The notes under the pieces: model-generated
The model's input: only the letters and a program-made list of their open reading frames with translations
Databases searched by the model: none
What the model was told of the DNA's origin: nothing
DNA from: Acidihalobacter ferrooxydans
GTDB lineage: Bacteria; Pseudomonadota; Gammaproteobacteria; DSM-5130; Acidihalobacteraceae
Direction of reading: 5' to 3'
Length of the DNA: 64,000 nt
Assembly: GCF_001975725.1 (NCBI RefSeq)
Contig: NZ_CP019434.1
Span: forward strand, 3,374,792-3,438,791
Position numbers and translations under genes: made by a program
Part shown: piece after piece, positions 2,810 to 9,850 of the stretch
Position numbering within the stretch: the stretch's first letter is position 1
Layout of the letters: each line of letters starts with the position of its first letter

Positions 2810-4261
2810 TTAACGTCTCCAGAAACCCGGCGTGAACAACACCAGAGGCGTGAACACCTCCAAGCGCCCGAAAAGCATGGCGAAACACAGCAGCCACTTG
2901 GCGACTGGATTGATATGCGCGTAGTTGTCGCCCACCGCGCCCAGACCGGGGCCGAGATTGTTCATGCAGGCTGCAACGGCGGAAAATGCCGTGATCTGGT
3001 TCAGCCCCGTGGCCATGAGCGCGAGCATGATCAGGCTGAACGTGGCCACATAGGCGGCAAAGAACCCCCAGACGGCATCGAGAATGCGATCATCCACCGG
3101 CCGACGCCCGATCTTCACCGCGAACTCCGCATTCGGATGGATCAGACGGTGCAACTCGCGCAGGCCCTGCTTGATCAGCAGCAGAAAGCGCACGACCTTG
3201 ATGCCGCCGCCGGTCGAGCCGGCGCAGCCACCGATGAAACTGGCGAAGATCAGCAGCGCCGGCAGGAAGCCCGGCCAGTGGTGATACGACGTGGTGGTAA
3301 AACCGGTGGTGGTGCCGATTGACACGGCCTGGAACAGACCCTGACGGAAATCCTCGCCAAAACTGCCGAAATAACGATTGAGGTAGAGATAGCCGACGAC
3401 GATGACCGCGAGCAAGGCGAGCACGGTGGCGTACGTGCGAAATTCGCTGTCTTCGAGGTAAGGACGCAGGCTCCGGCGGCGAATGGCATAGAAATGCAGA
3501 CCAAAGTTCGCCCCGGCGAGCAGCATGAACACAATCGCCACGGACTCGATCAGCGGGCTGTCGAAATAGCCCATGCTGGCATCATGCGGTGCGAAGCCGC
3601 CGATGGACACCGTGGCGAAGCTGTAGGAAATAGCGTCGAAGGGGTCCATGCCGGACAGCCAGTACGCCACCGCGCAGGCGACGGTCAGGCCGAGGTAGAT
3701 GTACCACAGCGCCTTGGCCGTCTCGGCGATCCGGGGGGTGAGCTTGGCGTCCTTGATCGGGCCCGGGGTCTCGGCGCGGTACAGCTGCATGCCGCCGACG
3801 CCGAGCATCGGCAGCACCGCCACGGCCAGCACGATGATGCCCATGCCGCCCAGCCATTCGAGTTCCTGGCGATAGAACAGGATCGATTTGGGTAGCCGGT
3901 CGAGGCCGACGATGACCGTCGCGCCGGTGGTGGTCAGCCCCGACACGGACTCGAACACTGCATCGGTGATCGACAGATGCGGGTGCACGGCAAGAGCCAG
4001 TGGAATCGCGCCGAACAGGCCCAGCACCACCCAGAACGATACCGCCACGAGGAAGCCGTCGCGCAGTTTCAGCTCGCGCCGGTTGTGGCGCGCCGGCCAC
4101 CACAGCAGCAGGCCGGTGCCGAGCGTGACCAGAAACCCGTTGATGAACGGCCGCACGCCGATATCGCCGTAGAACCAGCCTACGCCTGCCGGCGGGAGCA
4201 TGGTGAAGCTGAACACCATCAGCAGCAGGCCGAGGATGCGTTGGATCACACGCGGTTGCAT
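2810..4261 (-). CDS. trkH: TrkH-family potassium uptake channel, first tandem copy
   Basis: A 483-residue Trk channel subunit with the same architecture as the next gene: an N-terminal helix pair (IQRILGLLLMVFSFTML), the pore loop SGLTTTGATVIVG, the block KSILFYRQELEWLGGMGIIVLAV, then filters ATVSIGGFAPH, GTTTGFTTTSYHHWP and NNLGPGLGAVG. It lies 15 nt downstream of trkA and ends 1 nt before the second trkH, so all three should be one transcript. The two copies are close in sequence but differ at filter flanks, which would be compatible with differing affinity or ion preference (inference). The arrangement ntrYX-trkA-trkH recurs in gammaproteobacteria; the duplication is the distinctive part. 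Confidence 0.94.
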   Translation of the reverse strand: MQPRVIQRILGLLLMVFSFTMLPPAGVGWFYGDIGVRPFINGFLVTLGTGLLLWWPARHNRRELKLRDGFLVAVSFWVVLGLFGAIPLALAVHPHLSITDAVFESVSGLTTTGATVIVGLDRLPKSILFYRQELEWLGGMGIIVLAVAVLPMLGVGGMQLYRAETPGPIKDAKLTPRIAETAKALWYIYLGLTVACAVAYWLSGMDPFDAISYSFATVSIGGFAPHDASMGYFDSPLIESVAIVFMLLAGANFGLHFYAIRRRSLRPYLEDSEFRTYATVLALLAVIVVGYLYLNRYFGSFGEDFRQGLFQAVSIGTTTGFTTTSYHHWPGFLPALLIFASFIGGCAGSTGGGIKVVRFLLLIKQGLRELHRLIHPNAEFAVKIGRRPVDDRILDAVWGFFAAYVATFSLIMLALMATGLNQITAFSAVAACMNNLGPGLGAVGDNYAHINPVAKWLLCFAMLFGRLEVFTPLVLFTPGFWRR

Positions 4262-4276: not shown

Positions 4277-5653
4277 CTAGAGAAATGTGACGTCGACCTG
4301 AAACAGGCGCTCGACATCGCCGATGCGCGCCTTGTCGACAAGGAACAGGATGACATGGTCCTCGGACTCGATCACGGTGTCCCCGCGGGCCATGATCACC
4401 TCGTCGTCACCGCGCACGATGCAGCCGATCGTCGTGCCCTTGGGAAGCTTGATTTCGGCCACCCGCCGCCCGACCACGCGCGAAGTGCGCGAATCGCCAT
4501 GCGCGACGACCTCGATCGCCTCGGCCGCGCCGCGGCGCAGCGAATGGACCGCCACGATGTCGCCACGCCGCACATGGGTCAGCAGCGCGCCGATGGTGAT
4601 CTGCTGGGGCGAAATGGCCACATCGATGATGCCGCTCTCGACCAGATCCACATAGGCCGGCCGATTGATCAGCGACATCACCTTGCGCGCGCCGAGACGC
4701 TTGGCCAGCATCGCCGAGAGGATGTTGGCCTCGTCGTCATTGGTCAGCGCGCAGAACACGTCGGTCGCATCGATGTTTTCTTCGATCATCAGCGCTTCGT
4801 CGGCGGCGTCTCCACGCAACACGATGGCCCGGTCCAGGGTTTCGGACAGTTCGCGCGCCCGCGTCTGATTGTGTTCGATGATCTTGACCTGATAGCGCGA
4901 CTCCAGCTTCTCGGCCACGCGCCGGCCGATGTGGCCGCCGCCGGCGATGACAATGCGTTTGTAGCTCTTGTCGAGCTTGCGCAGCTCGCTGGTGATCGCC
5001 CGAATGTTCTTTTTCGAGGCGATGAAGAACACCTCGTCGTCGGCCTCGATGACCGTGTCGCCCTGCGGCAGGATGGCTTTGCCGCGCCGGAAGATCGCGG
5101 CCACGCGGGTCTGGATGCCGGGCATGTGCTCGGCCAGCGCGCGCAGTTCGCTGCCGACCAGCGAGCCGCCGTAGTACGCCCGCACCGCAACCAGCGACAC
5201 GGCGCCGCCGGCAAAATCCAGCACCTGCAACGCGCCCGGGTGCTCGATCAGCCGGTGCACGTAGTTGGTCACCAGATCCTCGGGGCCGATCAGCACATCG
5301 ACCGGCAGCGCATCCTGCGCGAATATTTCGCGGCGGGTGAGGTATTCCACGTCGCGCACGCGGGCGATCTTGGTCGGCGTGCGAAACAGCGTGTAGGCGA
5401 TCTGGCAGGCCACCATGTTGGTCTCGTCGCTGCTGGTCACGGCGATGATCATGTCCGCATCCGGCGCGCCGGCCGCTTCGAGTACGCCGGGATGCGAGGC
5501 ATGGCCGACCACGGTGCGCAGATCCAGGCGATCCTGCAATTCGCGCAATACGTCGGGGCGCGAATCCACCACGGTGATGTCGTTGGCCTCGCTGGCCAGA
5601 TGCTGCGCCACCGAACTGCCGACGCGACCCGCTCCCAATACAATGATTTTCAT
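4277..5653 (-). CDS. trkA: Trk system potassium uptake regulatory protein TrkA
   Basis: A 458-residue cytoplasmic gating subunit of Trk potassium transporters. It has two RCK (TrkA-N/TrkA-C) units. The first nucleotide-binding loop is [13 protein letters not shown] at residues 7-19 with an acidic residue ending beta-2 (VVDSRPD). The second is [13 protein letters not shown] near residue 240, followed by the acidic end IIEHNQ. Length equals the usual TrkA. It binds NAD(H) and ATP/ADP in characterised homologues and controls TrkH opening. It lies between ntrX (20 nt upstream) and trkH (15 nt downstream), same strand. No anomaly seen. Confidence 0.96.
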
Positions 5654-5673: not shown

Positions 5674-7038
5674 TTATCCGGCCTGAGCCGGTTTGTGGCG
5701 ATCGCGGCGCAGATCGATGCCGAGTGCGCGCAATTTGCGGTACAGATGCGTGCGTTCGATGCCGGCCTGCTCCGCGAGACGCGAAATATTGCCATCGCTC
5801 TCGGCCAGCCAGTGCGTCAAATAGGCACGCTCGAAGCGTTCGCGCGCGTCCTTGAGCGGCAGCGCAAGCAGCGCCTCATAGGCCGGCACACCGAACTGCG
5901 AAGCGTCCGTGGGCAAAGCTTCGAGGGCCGCGTCCGCTTCGTCAATGTCGACTTCGCCGCCATGCCCGACATTGAGCAGGTGCCGCACGAGCCCGACCAG
6001 TTCGCTCACATTGCCCGGCCAGCGATGATGCCGCAGGCGATTCTGCGCCGCCACCGTGAATTGCCGGTAGACCAGGCCTTCTTCCCGGTGCAGGCGCTCG
6101 GCATGGTACTGCAGCAGCTCCGGCACATCCTCGGCATGTTCGTGCAATGTCGGCACGCGGACATAGCCTGCCTCGAAACGCCGCGCGACCGACGGCGCCA
6201 TGCGTCCGGCTTCGACCATGGCCGCGGGAGGCATGTCGCTGGCCGCCAGCGCGGCAATCCGGATGTCCCGCGTTTGCGGATCGACGGTGTCGAGCAAGGC
6301 GAGCAACGCCGCCTGTTCGCTTGGCCGCAAGCGCAGCAGTTCGCCGAGACACAACAGGCCGCCTTGCGCCGCGCGCACCGCCTCTTCGAGCGCCTCGGCC
6401 TGGGCATGCTGCAAGGCGCGTTCGAGCGCGGGCGCCCAGCGCGCCTCGCTCAAATCGACGAACGCACCGGCGCGACGCGGACCGTGCGCATGCAGATAGC
6501 GCAGGAAGGTGTCGCGGCCGGAGCCGGCTTCACCGCCGACCAGCAGCCAGTCGTGGCGCGTCGCCCGCTGTTGGGCTTCTTCACGCAGGCGTCGCATGAC
6601 CATGCCGGTGCCGATCAGCGACACGGTCGCGTCGCGCGCAAATGCCGGAAAAGGTCGGCGCAACGCCTTCGCCGTTTCGATACCGCGGCGCACAGTCAGC
6701 AATAGCCTGGACAGGGACAGGGGTTTTTCGATGTAGTCGAATGCCCCGTGGCGGGTCGCCTCGACCGCGGTTTCGACCGTGCCGTGACCCGACATCATGA
6801 TGACCGTGAAACCGAGCGGACCTTGCGCATTCCAGTGTTTGAGCAGCGTCACGCCGTCCTCGTCGGGCATCCAGATGTCGAGCAGCACGACATCTGGCTG
6901 TTCGCGCTTTACCGCGACACGGGCCTGCGCCGCGTTGGCCGCGATCTCGACCACGTAATCCTCGTCCTGCAGAATCTCCTGTAGCAGACGGCGGATTTCC
7001 GGCTCGTCGTCGACCACGAGAACACGTTCAAAGCTCAT
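5674..7038 (-). CDS. ntrX: NtrX-like response regulator with degenerate AAA+ domain
   Basis: A 454-residue NtrC-family response regulator. The receiver domain is intact: acidic pair D10/D11, phospho-acceptor D54 in [11 protein letters not shown], and K105 in YIEKP. The C-terminal Fis-type helix-turn-helix (about 405-445, [25 protein letters not shown]) is also intact. The central AAA+ domain is not. Walker A reads GGEAGSGRD (168-176) with Arg for the essential Lys. The ELFG...GAFTGA segment is missing. The Walker B region reads GGLLCLGE with Gly for the Asp, and the FREDLYYRL arginine-finger segment is replaced. Family knowledge says such a protein cannot remodel sigma-54 polymerase, so it probably acts as a plain DNA-binding regulator. 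Partner kinase NtrY overlaps it by 4 nt. Confidence 0.9.
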
Positions 7039-9251
7039 TCCACGACTCCATGTGCCGTTGGTAGCGCCGATCCATGCAAGGGTAAGCGAATCACAAACCG
7101 CGCTCCACCCGCAGCGCGGTTTTCGACCCAGATGGTGCCATTGTGTTCTTCTACGATTTTTTTGACCACGGCCAGCCCGAGCCCACTGCCGCCCGGTTTT
7201 TCGCTGACGTAGGGTTCGAAAATCCGGGCCAGCACGGCGTCCGGCACGCCGGGGCCGTCATCGCTGATGCTCAGCTCGATGAACGCCGGTCGGTCATCGG
7301 TTCGCGCCTGTGCATGGGTTGCGAGCACCACGTGTGCGCGCGCGCGTCCGGCGGAGGCTTCGAGCGCATTTTTCAGCAAATTGTGCAGCAACTGCCGCAG
7401 ACGGCCGGGGTCGGCATAGATCATGCCGACTTCGGGGTCGGGCTCGAAGGTGAGCACGACGCCGGGATGTGCGCCATACAGTTCGAGCACGCCTTCGATC
7501 AACGCGTTCAGCGCCACTTCGCTGGGCTGCATGGCGGGTGCGCGGGCGTAGTCGCTGAAGGCCGTGACGAGCTGCTGCATGGCCTCGACCTGCTCGACGA
7601 TCGTGCTGGTGCAGCGCTCAAGCATACGGGCATCGCCAGCGTCGATATGCGGCAGCAACTTCCTGCGCAGGCGTTCCGCCGAGAGTTGGATCGGCGTCAA
7701 CGGATTGCGGATTTCGTGCGCCAGACGCCGCGCCACTTCGCCCCAGGCTGCATTGCGCTGCGCGCGGATCAGCGCGGTCACATCGTCGAACAACAGCACG
7801 TAGCCGCCGCCGGTGCCGGTCTGCAGCGGCAGGCGCGCGCCACGGCAGATCAGCACCTTGGTGCCGGCTTCACCGAACAGCTCCAGCTCCTGTTGCCAGG
7901 TGCGCTCGCCGCCTTCCAGGCGCTGGGCGACGCCCTCATACAACTGGCGCAGCATTTTGCCGCTCGGGCCGATGTCTGCCAGACGCCGGCCGAAGAAGGG
8001 AACCAGCGATTGTTCGAGGATCCGGTCTGCCGCGGGATTGGCGGTGCGCAGAACGGCATTGCGATCCAGCGTCAGCACCCCGGAGGATAAATGCTCCAGC
8101 ACGGTCTGCAGATAGCCACGCTGACGCTCGATCTGACGGCGGCCGCGTTCGGTTTCGTCGCGTGTGTTGGTCAGCCGCGTGGTCATCTCGTTGAACGAGC
8201 GCGCCAGTTGCCCCAGTTCGTCACGCCGGCGCACTTCGAGCTTGGTCTGCAAATCACCGGCGGCCACACGCCGGATCGCGCCGATCAGCTTGCGGATCGG
8301 CCGCAGCACGCCGTGCGCGGACAGCAACGCGGCCCACAGCGCGGACAGGACCGAGAGCAGCAAAACGACGGTCAGCGTCAGGGTGAAACTCTGCTTGAGC
8401 GGCACGTGCAGGAATGACATTTCACGATAGCGGTTGTAGGCATCCTGCACGTTCGCGGCCAGTTCGCTCTGGCGCTTGGGGATCAGAAACAGGGCCTGCA
8501 ACATGTCCGGCGGGGCCGTGATATTCGTACTGCCCGCTGGCGCGGGCACGGGCACCAGCACGCGCACCAGCAACTGGTGTGCGCCCGCCGGTTCGAGGCG
8601 CGCATAGCTATGGGTGCTTGTGTACTGGCGCAGCGCGTCCTGCGGCGGCAGGCTGGGCACGAGCTTGCCCAGCGCTCCGCTACTGCTGGCAATGATCCGC
8701 TCGTTCAGCCCGAACAGCGTCAGCTCGCCGGCGTGCATCTGTGCGCGCAGTTCATCGAGCTTGAGCGGCAGATGGACGCTGTCGAGGCCGCTCAGCGATT
8801 GGGCGGCCTGCCGGGTCTGGCGCAGGTAACCGTGGAGGCGTTCGTCCAGCGACAGGCGGCTCAGTTCGAGCGCCCCGGCGAGCGATTTTTCGATGTTGAC
8901 GTTGAACCAGCTGTCAATGCCGTTATCCAGGAAGCTCAAGGAAAACACATAGACGACAAACACCGGCACGAACGCAAGCAATACGAATATCCCGGACAGG
9001 CGCAGCGTGAGCCGCGCGCCCGGCTCGCGCCGCAAGCCGCGCCGCACGAATTCGAACACGTTGAGCAGGATCAGCACCGCCAGCAGCAGCAGCACGAAGG
9101 CGTTGAACAGCAGCAACCAGAAATAGTGGGCGCTGAAGCGTTGCGAGTTCTGCACCGCGTCGGCCATGGCGAGAACGGCGCCGAGCGTCAGGCCGATCAG
9201 CAGCAGGACCGGCCACACGCGCATGGACAGCCGCTTCAGCGAAATGCGCAT
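7035..9251 (-). CDS. ntrY: NtrY-type membrane sensor histidine kinase
   Basis: A 738-residue kinase. Membrane segments lie near residues 11-30, 44-68, 84-108 and 287-313 and enclose a periplasmic loop of about 180 residues. A HAMP domain follows (about 314-365) and then a PAS-like region (375-495). The H-box is RLAHEIRNPLTP with His512. The N-box LLHNLLKNALEA, G1 DDGPGVPD and G2 GGSGLGLAVVKKI complete an active catalytic domain. The stop overlaps ntrX by ATGA (7035-7038), so kinase and regulator are translationally coupled. It precedes trkA-trkH, which hints that ionic or envelope conditions may be sensed (inference). Confidence 0.94.
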   Translation of the reverse strand: MRISLKRLSMRVWPVLLLIGLTLGAVLAMADAVQNSQRFSAHYFWLLLFNAFVLLLLAVLILLNVFEFVRRGLRREPGARLTLRLSGIFVLLAFVPVFVVYVFSLSFLDNGIDSWFNVNIEKSLAGALELSRLSLDERLHGYLRQTRQAAQSLSGLDSVHLPLKLDELRAQMHAGELTLFGLNERIIASSSGALGKLVPSLPPQDALRQYTSTHSYARLEPAGAHQLLVRVLVPVPAPAGSTNITAPPDMLQALFLIPKRQSELAANVQDAYNRYREMSFLHVPLKQSFTLTLTVVLLLSVLSALWAALLSAHGVLRPIRKLIGAIRRVAAGDLQTKLEVRRRDELGQLARSFNEMTTRLTNTRDETERGRRQIERQRGYLQTVLEHLSSGVLTLDRNAVLRTANPAADRILEQSLVPFFGRRLADIGPSGKMLRQLYEGVAQRLEGGERTWQQELELFGEAGTKVLICRGARLPLQTGTGGGYVLLFDDVTALIRAQRNAAWGEVARRLAHEIRNPLTPIQLSAERLRRKLLPHIDAGDARMLERCTSTIVEQVEAMQQLVTAFSDYARAPAMQPSEVALNALIEGVLELYGAHPGVVLTFEPDPEVGMIYADPGRLRQLLHNLLKNALEASAGRARAHVVLATHAQARTDDRPAFIELSISDDGPGVPDAVLARIFEPYVSEKPGGSGLGLAVVKKIVEEHNGTIWVENRAAGGARFVIRLPLHGSALPTAHGVVE

Positions 9252-9850
9252 TGATACCAGGCGCTCGACGGTCGCCAGGCGCTGTTGAAATAGGCGCGCA
9301 CACGCAGCGGCAGCGGCAGATCGGCGGCATCGACGTGCAGGCGCACCTCGGCCACGACCACCTTGCCTTTTGGCAGCAGGCTTTGATCAAGCACGGGAAA
9401 GCGGCGCAGCCGTTCGATGTGGGCCAAGGCACCGTCGAGCGTGGCGTAGCTCGAACTGATCCCGGTGTTGAGATTGTCCACCTGGTAGCGCTGAGAAAGC
9501 GGCCGGTAACGCAGGCGATAGCGTTGATGGACCGCGGCAACGGTGTTATTGAACCACCACCAGGGGCCAGGATGAACCACGCGTATGTCGTAACTCAGGG
9601 TGAGGCTGACGCCATTGTTGAGCGCATTTTCGAGCTTGCCATCGAGGCGCAGCCGGGCCGTGGCGTCGAGATAGTAGACCCGGTCCCGCGCATACGTGCG
9701 CGCCGACAGAATCCGGATATCCGCCGTGGGAGCGCCGTGCCCGGAATTGGCCTGCGTGGAGGCGGCAGGCCGGGAACTGGCCTGGGCCGCCCCGCCGAGC
9801 AATACGCTCAGCGCGAGCCCCAGCAACAAGCGCCCGGCAGCCATCATCAT
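9236..9850 (-). CDS. DUF4390 exported protein
   Basis: A 204-residue protein with an N-terminal signal-like segment (residues 6-24, hydrophobic, ending AQASS), so probably exported or membrane-tethered. The remainder matches the DUF4390 pattern: DIRILSARTYARDRVYYLDATARLRL, an LSYDIRVVHP...WWWFNN stretch and a C-terminal LRVRAYFNSAWRPSSAWYQCAFR. DUF4390 genes normally sit between rsmB and ntrY, as here: the start overlaps rsmB by 4 nt and the end overlaps ntrY by 16 nt. That suggests a role with the NtrY sensor, but no activity is known for the family. Start could be any of the three consecutive ATGs; the first is taken. Confidence 0.85.
   Translation of the reverse strand: MMMAAGRLLLGLALSVLLGGAAQASSRPAASTQANSGHGAPTADIRILSARTYARDRVYYLDATARLRLDGKLENALNNGVSLTLSYDIRVVHPGPWWWFNNTVAAVHQRYRLRYRPLSQRYQVDNLNTGISSSYATLDGALAHIERLRRFPVLDQSLLPKGKVVVAEVRLHVDAADLPLPLRVRAYFNSAWRPSSAWYQCAFR

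Follow-up and report, generated by a model that had tools for sequence, protein, structure and literature searches.

An NtrX-like response regulator with a degenerate AAA+ domain in Acidihalobacter ferrooxydans and its gammaproteobacterial orthologs

The ntrX locus

On the reverse strand of the window, by which we mean the whole 64,000-nucleotide stretch of Acidihalobacter ferrooxydans DNA analysed here, lies a gene for an NtrX-like response regulator in the order rsmB-DUF4390(plrP)-ntrY-ntrX-trkA-trkH, with rsmB, fmt and def placed by synteny upstream of the DUF4390 gene (Table 1). Its product, the window NtrX, has the domain order receiver (REC), AAA+ and Fis-type helix-turn-helix (HTH), with Pfam matches to Response_reg (residues 6-116), Sigma54_activat (142-280), AAA_lid_14 (300-373) and HTH_8 (399-438), each above its cut-off. 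The best NCBIfam model was NF051870, the NtrX equivalog, at 279.5 bits, below its cut-off of 600. Four gammaproteobacterial orthologs outside the Acidihalobacteraceae scored 398-478 bits against this model and one Acidihalobacter protein 300.7, so that all six gammaproteobacterial NtrX proteins scored (279.5 to 477.6 bits) missed the cut-off. Since the whole group scored falls under it, the cut-off is without discriminating value here, and such proteins go unnamed or are given sigma-54 names.

In the NtrY-like kinase encoded next to ntrX the H, N, G1, F and G2 boxes are preserved, and the intact NtrY partner supposed in an earlier note on this DNA is thus borne out as far as the catalytic boxes go; the match to PF19312 (NtrY_N) reached 21.3 bits, under the cut-off of 23.2. 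Within the H-box (kinase residues 512-518) the five Acidihalobacteraceae read HE[IV]RNPL, whereas the 14 other kinases covering this stretch read HEIKNPL.

The arrangement is well kept. Among the loci compared, trkA comes next after ntrX in 17 of 19, and where ntrX encodes an AAA+ domain, DUF4390, ntrY, ntrX, trkA and trkH were present at 14 of 14 loci and rsmB at 13 (no match in L240). Because trkA starts 20 bp past the end of ntrX, there is no intergenic trk promoter of any length to test. A scan of the window for CAAN5TTG, which we take to be the NtrX box, gave 9 matches against 13.2 expected by chance, and thus no signal. A pair of trkH genes was seen in the window, in L232 and at the loci of the four other Acidihalobacteraceae; paired trkH genes in Acidihalobacter have already been reported (PMC9062700), and were called unpublished elsewhere.

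Table 1. Features of the ntrX locus, with positions in the window
Feature	Position	Strand	Basis
ntrX-like response regulator, 454 aa, REC - pseudo-AAA+ - lid - Fis HTH	5674..7038	-	single ORF, Pfam domains
Receiver domain, residues 5-118; D54 at 6877-6879	6685..7026	-	Pfam Response_reg, 101.8 bits
Degenerate AAA+ core, residues 140-298	6145..6621	-	Sigma54_activat, 37.3 bits (weak); core lengths; AlphaFold fold
Altered Walker A GEAGSGRD, residues 169-176, Lys→Arg at 175	6511..6534	-	alignment
Place of the missing L1/GAFTGA loop, residues 213-215	6394..6402	-	alignment with GAFTGA-bearing bEBPs of the same genome
Altered Walker B LCLGEL, residues 229-234, Asp→Gly at 232	6337..6354	-	alignment
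Rewritten arginine-finger segment MAPSVARRF, residues 280-288, first Arg lost	6175..6201	-	alignment
AAA+ lid, residues 299-375	5914..6144	-	Pfam AAA_lid_14, 46.5 bits
Sensor II segment GNVSELVG, residues 342-349, Arg→Ser at 345	5992..6015	-	alignment
Fis-type HTH region, residues 390-445	5704..5871	-	Pfam HTH_8
HTH recognition segment ERTHLYRK	5734-5757	-	near-invariant in the 173 orthologs reaching the HTH
ntrY-like sensor histidine kinase, 4-bp overlap with ntrX	7035..9251	-	HisKA, HATPase_c, HAMP, PAS
DUF4390 protein, PlrP-like candidate periplasmic third component	9236..9850	-	Pfam DUF4390, 144.6 bits
trkA, start 20 bp downstream of ntrX end	4277..5653	-	ORF; named by synteny and PMC9062700
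Two adjacent trkH genes after trkA	1360-2808, 2810-4261	-	

Catalytic residues and fold of the central domain

Both ends of the window NtrX are intact. Pfam and the alignment confirm the receiver, with D10, D11, D54, S83 and K105 in place, and the Fis-type HTH with its recognition segment ERTHLYRK, as the earlier note had claimed. In the central domain, alignment with the canonical activators of the same genome revealed that four catalytic residues are replaced, namely the Walker A Lys by Arg175, the Walker B Asp by Gly232, the first finger Arg by Ala281 and the sensor II Arg by Ser345. The finger and sensor II positions were assigned on what we take to be their places in PspF and NtrC1. The sensor II segment reads GNVSELVG where canonical activators have GNVRELxN, and the AAA+ core covers 159 aligned positions compared with 173-174 in seven canonical bEBPs of this genome. 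Hence GAFTGA and the two Walker residues are absent, as are the first finger Arg and the sensor II Arg, all of them hallmarks of a sigma-54 activator. The two Walker substitutions and the missing GAFTGA agree with the earlier reading, whose list had not included the sensor II loss. Two other points required adjustment. The arginine-finger segment, previously held to be missing, has lost its first Arg but is present in rewritten form, MAPSVARRF against the canonical FREDLYYRL, with R287 aligned to the second finger position (W, D, H and L in the four Acidihalobacteraceae relatives). Likewise, the claimed loss of both nucleotide-binding motifs does go beyond the loss of GAFTGA alone, since Caulobacter NtrC, according to PMC10274813, is without GAFTGA yet requires both its Walker A Lys and its Walker B Asp; it is too strong for Walker A, however, where the glycines of GxxGxG are still in place and Arg for Lys is a conservative exchange.

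The source genome encodes rpoN and 12 strong sigma-54 activator proteins, 10 of which carry the GAFTGA string in their extracted sequences, and the window NtrX could on these grounds be an inactive subunit mixed with another bEBP in sigma-54 activation. We regard this as very unlikely, as the core and the first arginine finger, which make up the subunit interfaces, are the very parts that have diverged, no partner gene lies adjacent and relatives have deleted the whole core.

An AlphaFold model of the window NtrX, built from 45 aligned sequences, had a mean pLDDT of 83.7 (mostly about 90 in the core) and a pTM of 0.58. Its best full-length structural match was Brucella NtrX (Z 26.7, rmsd 20.4, the domain arrangement not being reproduced), and the central domain superposed on the FleQ AAA+ domain with ATP-gamma-S (5exs) with Z 22.0 and rmsd 2.8 over 227 residues. 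Judged by the model, the AAA+ fold is kept, and a shared fold says nothing of activity. Brucella abortus NtrX, crystallised with ATP and ADP (PDB 5m7n, 5m7o, 5m7p), was also the top full-length match in sequence among solved structures (216.6 bits); it has the same REC-AAA+-Fis HTH order and no GAFTGA in the aligned L1 region. Unlike the window NtrX, which has lost the Lys, the Asp, the first finger Arg and the sensor II Arg, it keeps GPSGAGKE, LYLDEV, FREDLFHRL and GNLRQL.

Decay of the AAA+ core among orthologs

To the window NtrX we added sets of 29, 52 and 100 orthologs, giving 182 sequences, or 174 rows from GTDB Gammaproteobacteria after removal of 8 duplicates (L047 is a duplicate of L018). 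From the second source set 28 of 80 loci were dropped (26 distant, mostly planctomycete, and two contig-cut fragments, L090 and L093), and the third consisted of 100 of 173 matching genomes; with the window NtrX as query throughout, the census leans to window-like proteins. GAFTGA is absent in the alignment from 174 of 174 orthologs, and none of the 174 contains the string G[AGSY][FY][TSP]G. The earlier remark that NtrX proteins often lack this loop was therefore right about the absence and too weak about its extent, and the loss of sigma-54 contact is ancestral. The Walker A Lys is lost in 34 of the 174, the Walker B Asp in 100, and the first finger Arg and the sensor II Arg in 44 each, while 52 proteins have lost no catalytic residue and 13 have lost all four. 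By source set, four-residue loss was seen in 6/30, 6/51 and 1/93 and Walker B Asp loss in 24/30, 23/51 and 53/93; full catalytic loss is rare outside a few lineages, and Walker B loss is common everywhere. On the tree, the fewest changes of state, which are not the same as losses, numbered 14 for the Walker A Lys, 29 for the Walker B Asp, 15 for the finger and 19 for sensor II. The loss of the Walker A Lys together with the Walker B Asp or sensor II was also examined for correlation, and the 6 supported independent pairs were too few for significance. The receiver residues D10, D11, D54, S83 and K105 are present in 174 of 174 orthologs, and the recognition-segment residues are kept in 159 to 173 of the 173 rows reaching them.

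All five Acidihalobacteraceae orthologs (the window, L018, L019, L020 and L021) have lost all four residues. The losses are thus lineage-wide at family level for the four residues, and at class level for GAFTGA. The four other family members are 57-58% identical to the window NtrX and form with it a clade with support 100. Chance, sequencing error or a frameshift is ruled out by the shared losses in 5/5, by this clade support and by the core dN/dS given below. A grouping of the family with L043, L081, L082 and L083 (support 56) was set aside as possible long-branch attraction. The earlier note had pictured a switch made by this protein, away from an ATP-driven activator, and this does not hold: with GAFTGA gone from every ortholog and Walker loss recurring in the NtrX family, a switch newly arisen in the Acidihalobacteraceae lineage is ruled out. 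Instead, decay has proceeded across the lineage, with AAA+-less NtrX of the betaproteobacterial PlrR type as its end point, and the window NtrX stands far along this course.

Outright deletion is seen in some relatives. When 274 genomes of the class were searched with a profile of the conserved C-terminal tail, 196 had matches with E ≤ 1e-7, weak matches to other proteins included, and re-inspection of 15 genomes yielded five relatives without the core, each with a strong match in a short frame that does not come from a contig end. L236 (240 aa), L237 (234 aa), L238 (199 aa) and L239 (195 aa) are REC-HTH only, with core and lid gone, and L241 (298 aa) matches residues 4-122 of the window NtrX followed by 293-445, so that the core is gone and the lid kept. 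L238, L239 and L241 adjoin trkA-trkH; L236 and L237 come after rsmB. L241:7903-8796 is a candidate clean core deletion with a continuous frame, from one draft genome that is 84% complete. The REC-HTH proteins at L238:7869-8465 and L239:8023-8607, beside trkA-trkH, belong to two small genomes of one genus, and no match to the DUF4390 protein or RsmB of the window was found in the stretches of these two that were examined.

The rate at which the core evolves follows the residues lost. With the topology fixed and terminal branches summed, the core-to-receiver ratio was 1.16, 1.53, 2.39, 2.47 and 3.47 for proteins with zero to four residues lost (n = 51, 64, 29, 16 and 13; L217, a contig-cut row without the HTH, was excluded), with a Spearman correlation of 0.45 (p 5e-10), or 0.43 without the Acidihalobacteraceae. 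Between proteins with 3-4 residues lost and those with none, the core ratio differs 2.37-fold, a difference that none of 5000 label shuffles reached; of the four counted residues, two lie within the core alignment (162 columns) and two within the lid, which makes the circularity small, if not nil. No trend was found for the HTH-to-receiver ratio (Spearman -0.08, p 0.28), nor overall for the lid (0.09, p 0.24), although the lid ratio of 2.86 in proteins with four residues lost indicates that the relaxation is not confined to the core. Among three congeners the core had a dN/dS of 0.10-0.20, compared with 0.02-0.09 in the receiver and 0 to 0.03 in the HTH, rough figures given that several dS values exceed 1. 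By these ratios the core is relaxed but not neutral, and still does something. Lost catalytic motifs and a fast core are what a decaying pseudogene might display, and we consider this extremely improbable for ntrX: the open reading frame is full-length in 5/5 family members, receiver and recognition helix are intact, synteny is kept, and dN/dS lies well under 1 in every domain, that of the core being the mark of a constrained domain.

The conservation of the P-loop speaks against simple decay. Of the 29 proteins that have lost three or four catalytic residues, 29, 26 and 27 keep its three glycines (ranks 2, 9 and 6 in conservation among 159 core positions), and 28 have Lys or Arg at the Walker A Lys position, so that nucleotide or anion binding by the P-loop of the window NtrX may persist. 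Arg accounts for 29 of the 34 replacements of this Lys among all orthologs, but since the tree shows changes between Lys, Arg and other residues there only about 15 times and Lys→Arg is a common exchange, this figure is not taken as a sign that a basic residue is selectively retained. One could go further and suppose that hydrolysis is lost while ATP or ADP binding is kept and needed for oligomerisation and activity, as for Rhodobacter capsulatus NtrC, which according to PMC10274813 needs ATP binding and not hydrolysis. The kept GxxGxG with its conservative Lys→Arg, the conserved P-loop of degenerate relatives, the Arg that is invariant in the five Acidihalobacteraceae though core identity falls to 0.38, and the nucleotide-bound Brucella crystals are all consistent with this. 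We hold it to be possible rather than probable, as the window NtrX also lacks the Walker B Asp and the sensor II Arg, and the core has been deleted outright in five relatives. Furthermore, the three glycines are equally kept where the Lys has become Leu, Ile, Met or Gln (L039, L088, L140, L169 and L170), and may thus be structural, serving the fold.

Alternatively, a different ligand, for example c-di-GMP, could now bind in the old nucleotide pocket, after the manner of VpsR, which lacks GAFTGA, or of FleQ. VpsR (described with c-di-GMP binding) and FleQ are among the Foldseek structural neighbours, the core is folded in the model and constrained with an altered pocket, and the Acidihalobacteraceae share 15 invariant positions in core, lid or linker that are rare elsewhere. 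However, VpsR and FleQ are no closer than Brucella NtrX or NtrC1, and the divergence of the core within the family (identity 0.38-0.77) is above that expected for a new binding site, which makes this reading unlikely.

Predicted mode of action and known systems

We favour, with a probability of roughly 0.7, the reading that the window NtrX is a hydrolysis-dead, NtrY-phosphorylated DNA-binding regulator that acts at non-sigma-54 promoters and represents a late stage of AAA+ dismantling. Intact receiver, HTH and NtrY, together with the motif losses, suggest that the earlier note was right to see a phosphorylation-controlled DNA binder rather than a sigma-54 activator. In such a system NtrY, whose kinase boxes are intact, would phosphorylate D54 of NtrX, and the DUF4390/PlrP protein may tune NtrY, much as is proposed for Bordetella PlrP (PMC13001219). 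Phosphorylation of D54 would then shift the oligomeric state or the DNA affinity of NtrX, the Fis-type HTH would bind target promoters, and bound NtrX would raise or repress transcription by a non-sigma-54 RNA polymerase; action at sigma-70 promoters is what we infer. The AAA+ domain, by its sequence without GAFTGA, cannot make sigma-54 contact, and with four catalytic residues replaced it is predicted to be unable to hydrolyse ATP efficiently. Domain and lid would persist as a folded spacer or scaffold, which places the window NtrX among the most decayed of the AAA+-bearing stages, beyond which core, or core plus lid, appear to have been deleted.

Such a regulator would have known counterparts. 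PMC13001219 describes betaproteobacterial NtrX without an AAA+ domain, PlrR, which acts in a phosphorylation-dependent way and is encoded in the same order, rsmB-plrP(DUF4390)-plrS-plrR-trkA-trkH. The recognition segment ERTHLYRK is near-identical between the window NtrX and the REC-HTH proteins of this PlrR type; in the latter the AAA+ domain is wholly absent, whereas the window NtrX retains a folded, degenerate one. The NtrC proteins of Caulobacter and R. capsulatus are likewise without the sigma-54 contact loop and act at sigma-70 promoters, but unlike the window NtrX they keep the Walker A Lys and Walker B Asp, and Caulobacter NtrX is GAFTGA-less as well (PMC10274813). TyrR, DhaR, HupR and VpsR, sigma-70 relatives with a bEBP fold and no working GAFTGA, are not orthologous to the window NtrX (PMC3162934). 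For the Gammaproteobacteria, Thioalkalivibrio NtrX (G372_RS0109755) is listed without GAFTGA in Table 2 of PMC5744179.

GAFTGA-less NtrX and AAA+-less betaproteobacterial NtrX are therefore already known. In the open-licence literature searched, to the extent that its texts were available, no description of Walker-motif decay in gammaproteobacterial NtrX was found; apparently undescribed there is the intermediate series of recurrent Walker B loss, full catalytic loss in the Acidihalobacteraceae, and core deletion with the lid kept. A bolder and rather doubtful proposal is that the gammaproteobacterial NtrX family forms a series in which the ATP motor is dismantled in a preferred order, GAFTGA going first, the Walker B Asp next, and finger and sensor II after that. 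The P-loop would last longest, binding a ligand or anion without hydrolysis, and deletion of the core would precede that of the lid. The Acidihalobacteraceae would then be a late stage in which the Arg P-loop senses nucleotide and couples it to the phospho-switch. Whatever its order, the family ranges, at related loci, from orthologs with a full ATPase through partial and full catalytic loss to core deletion and REC-HTH only, and through this graded series the role of an AAA+ domain after the loss of sigma-54 contact is directly testable.

By its sequence the window NtrX has no capacity for sigma-54 activation, and we read it as a candidate regulator of the envelope or of ion homeostasis. In Caulobacter and Brucella, phosphorylation of NtrX is triggered by acidic pH (PMC5892882), which makes pH a reasonable candidate signal, and no more than that, in an acidophile. 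The gene adjoins the potassium uptake genes to which the reversed membrane potential of this acidophile is ascribed.
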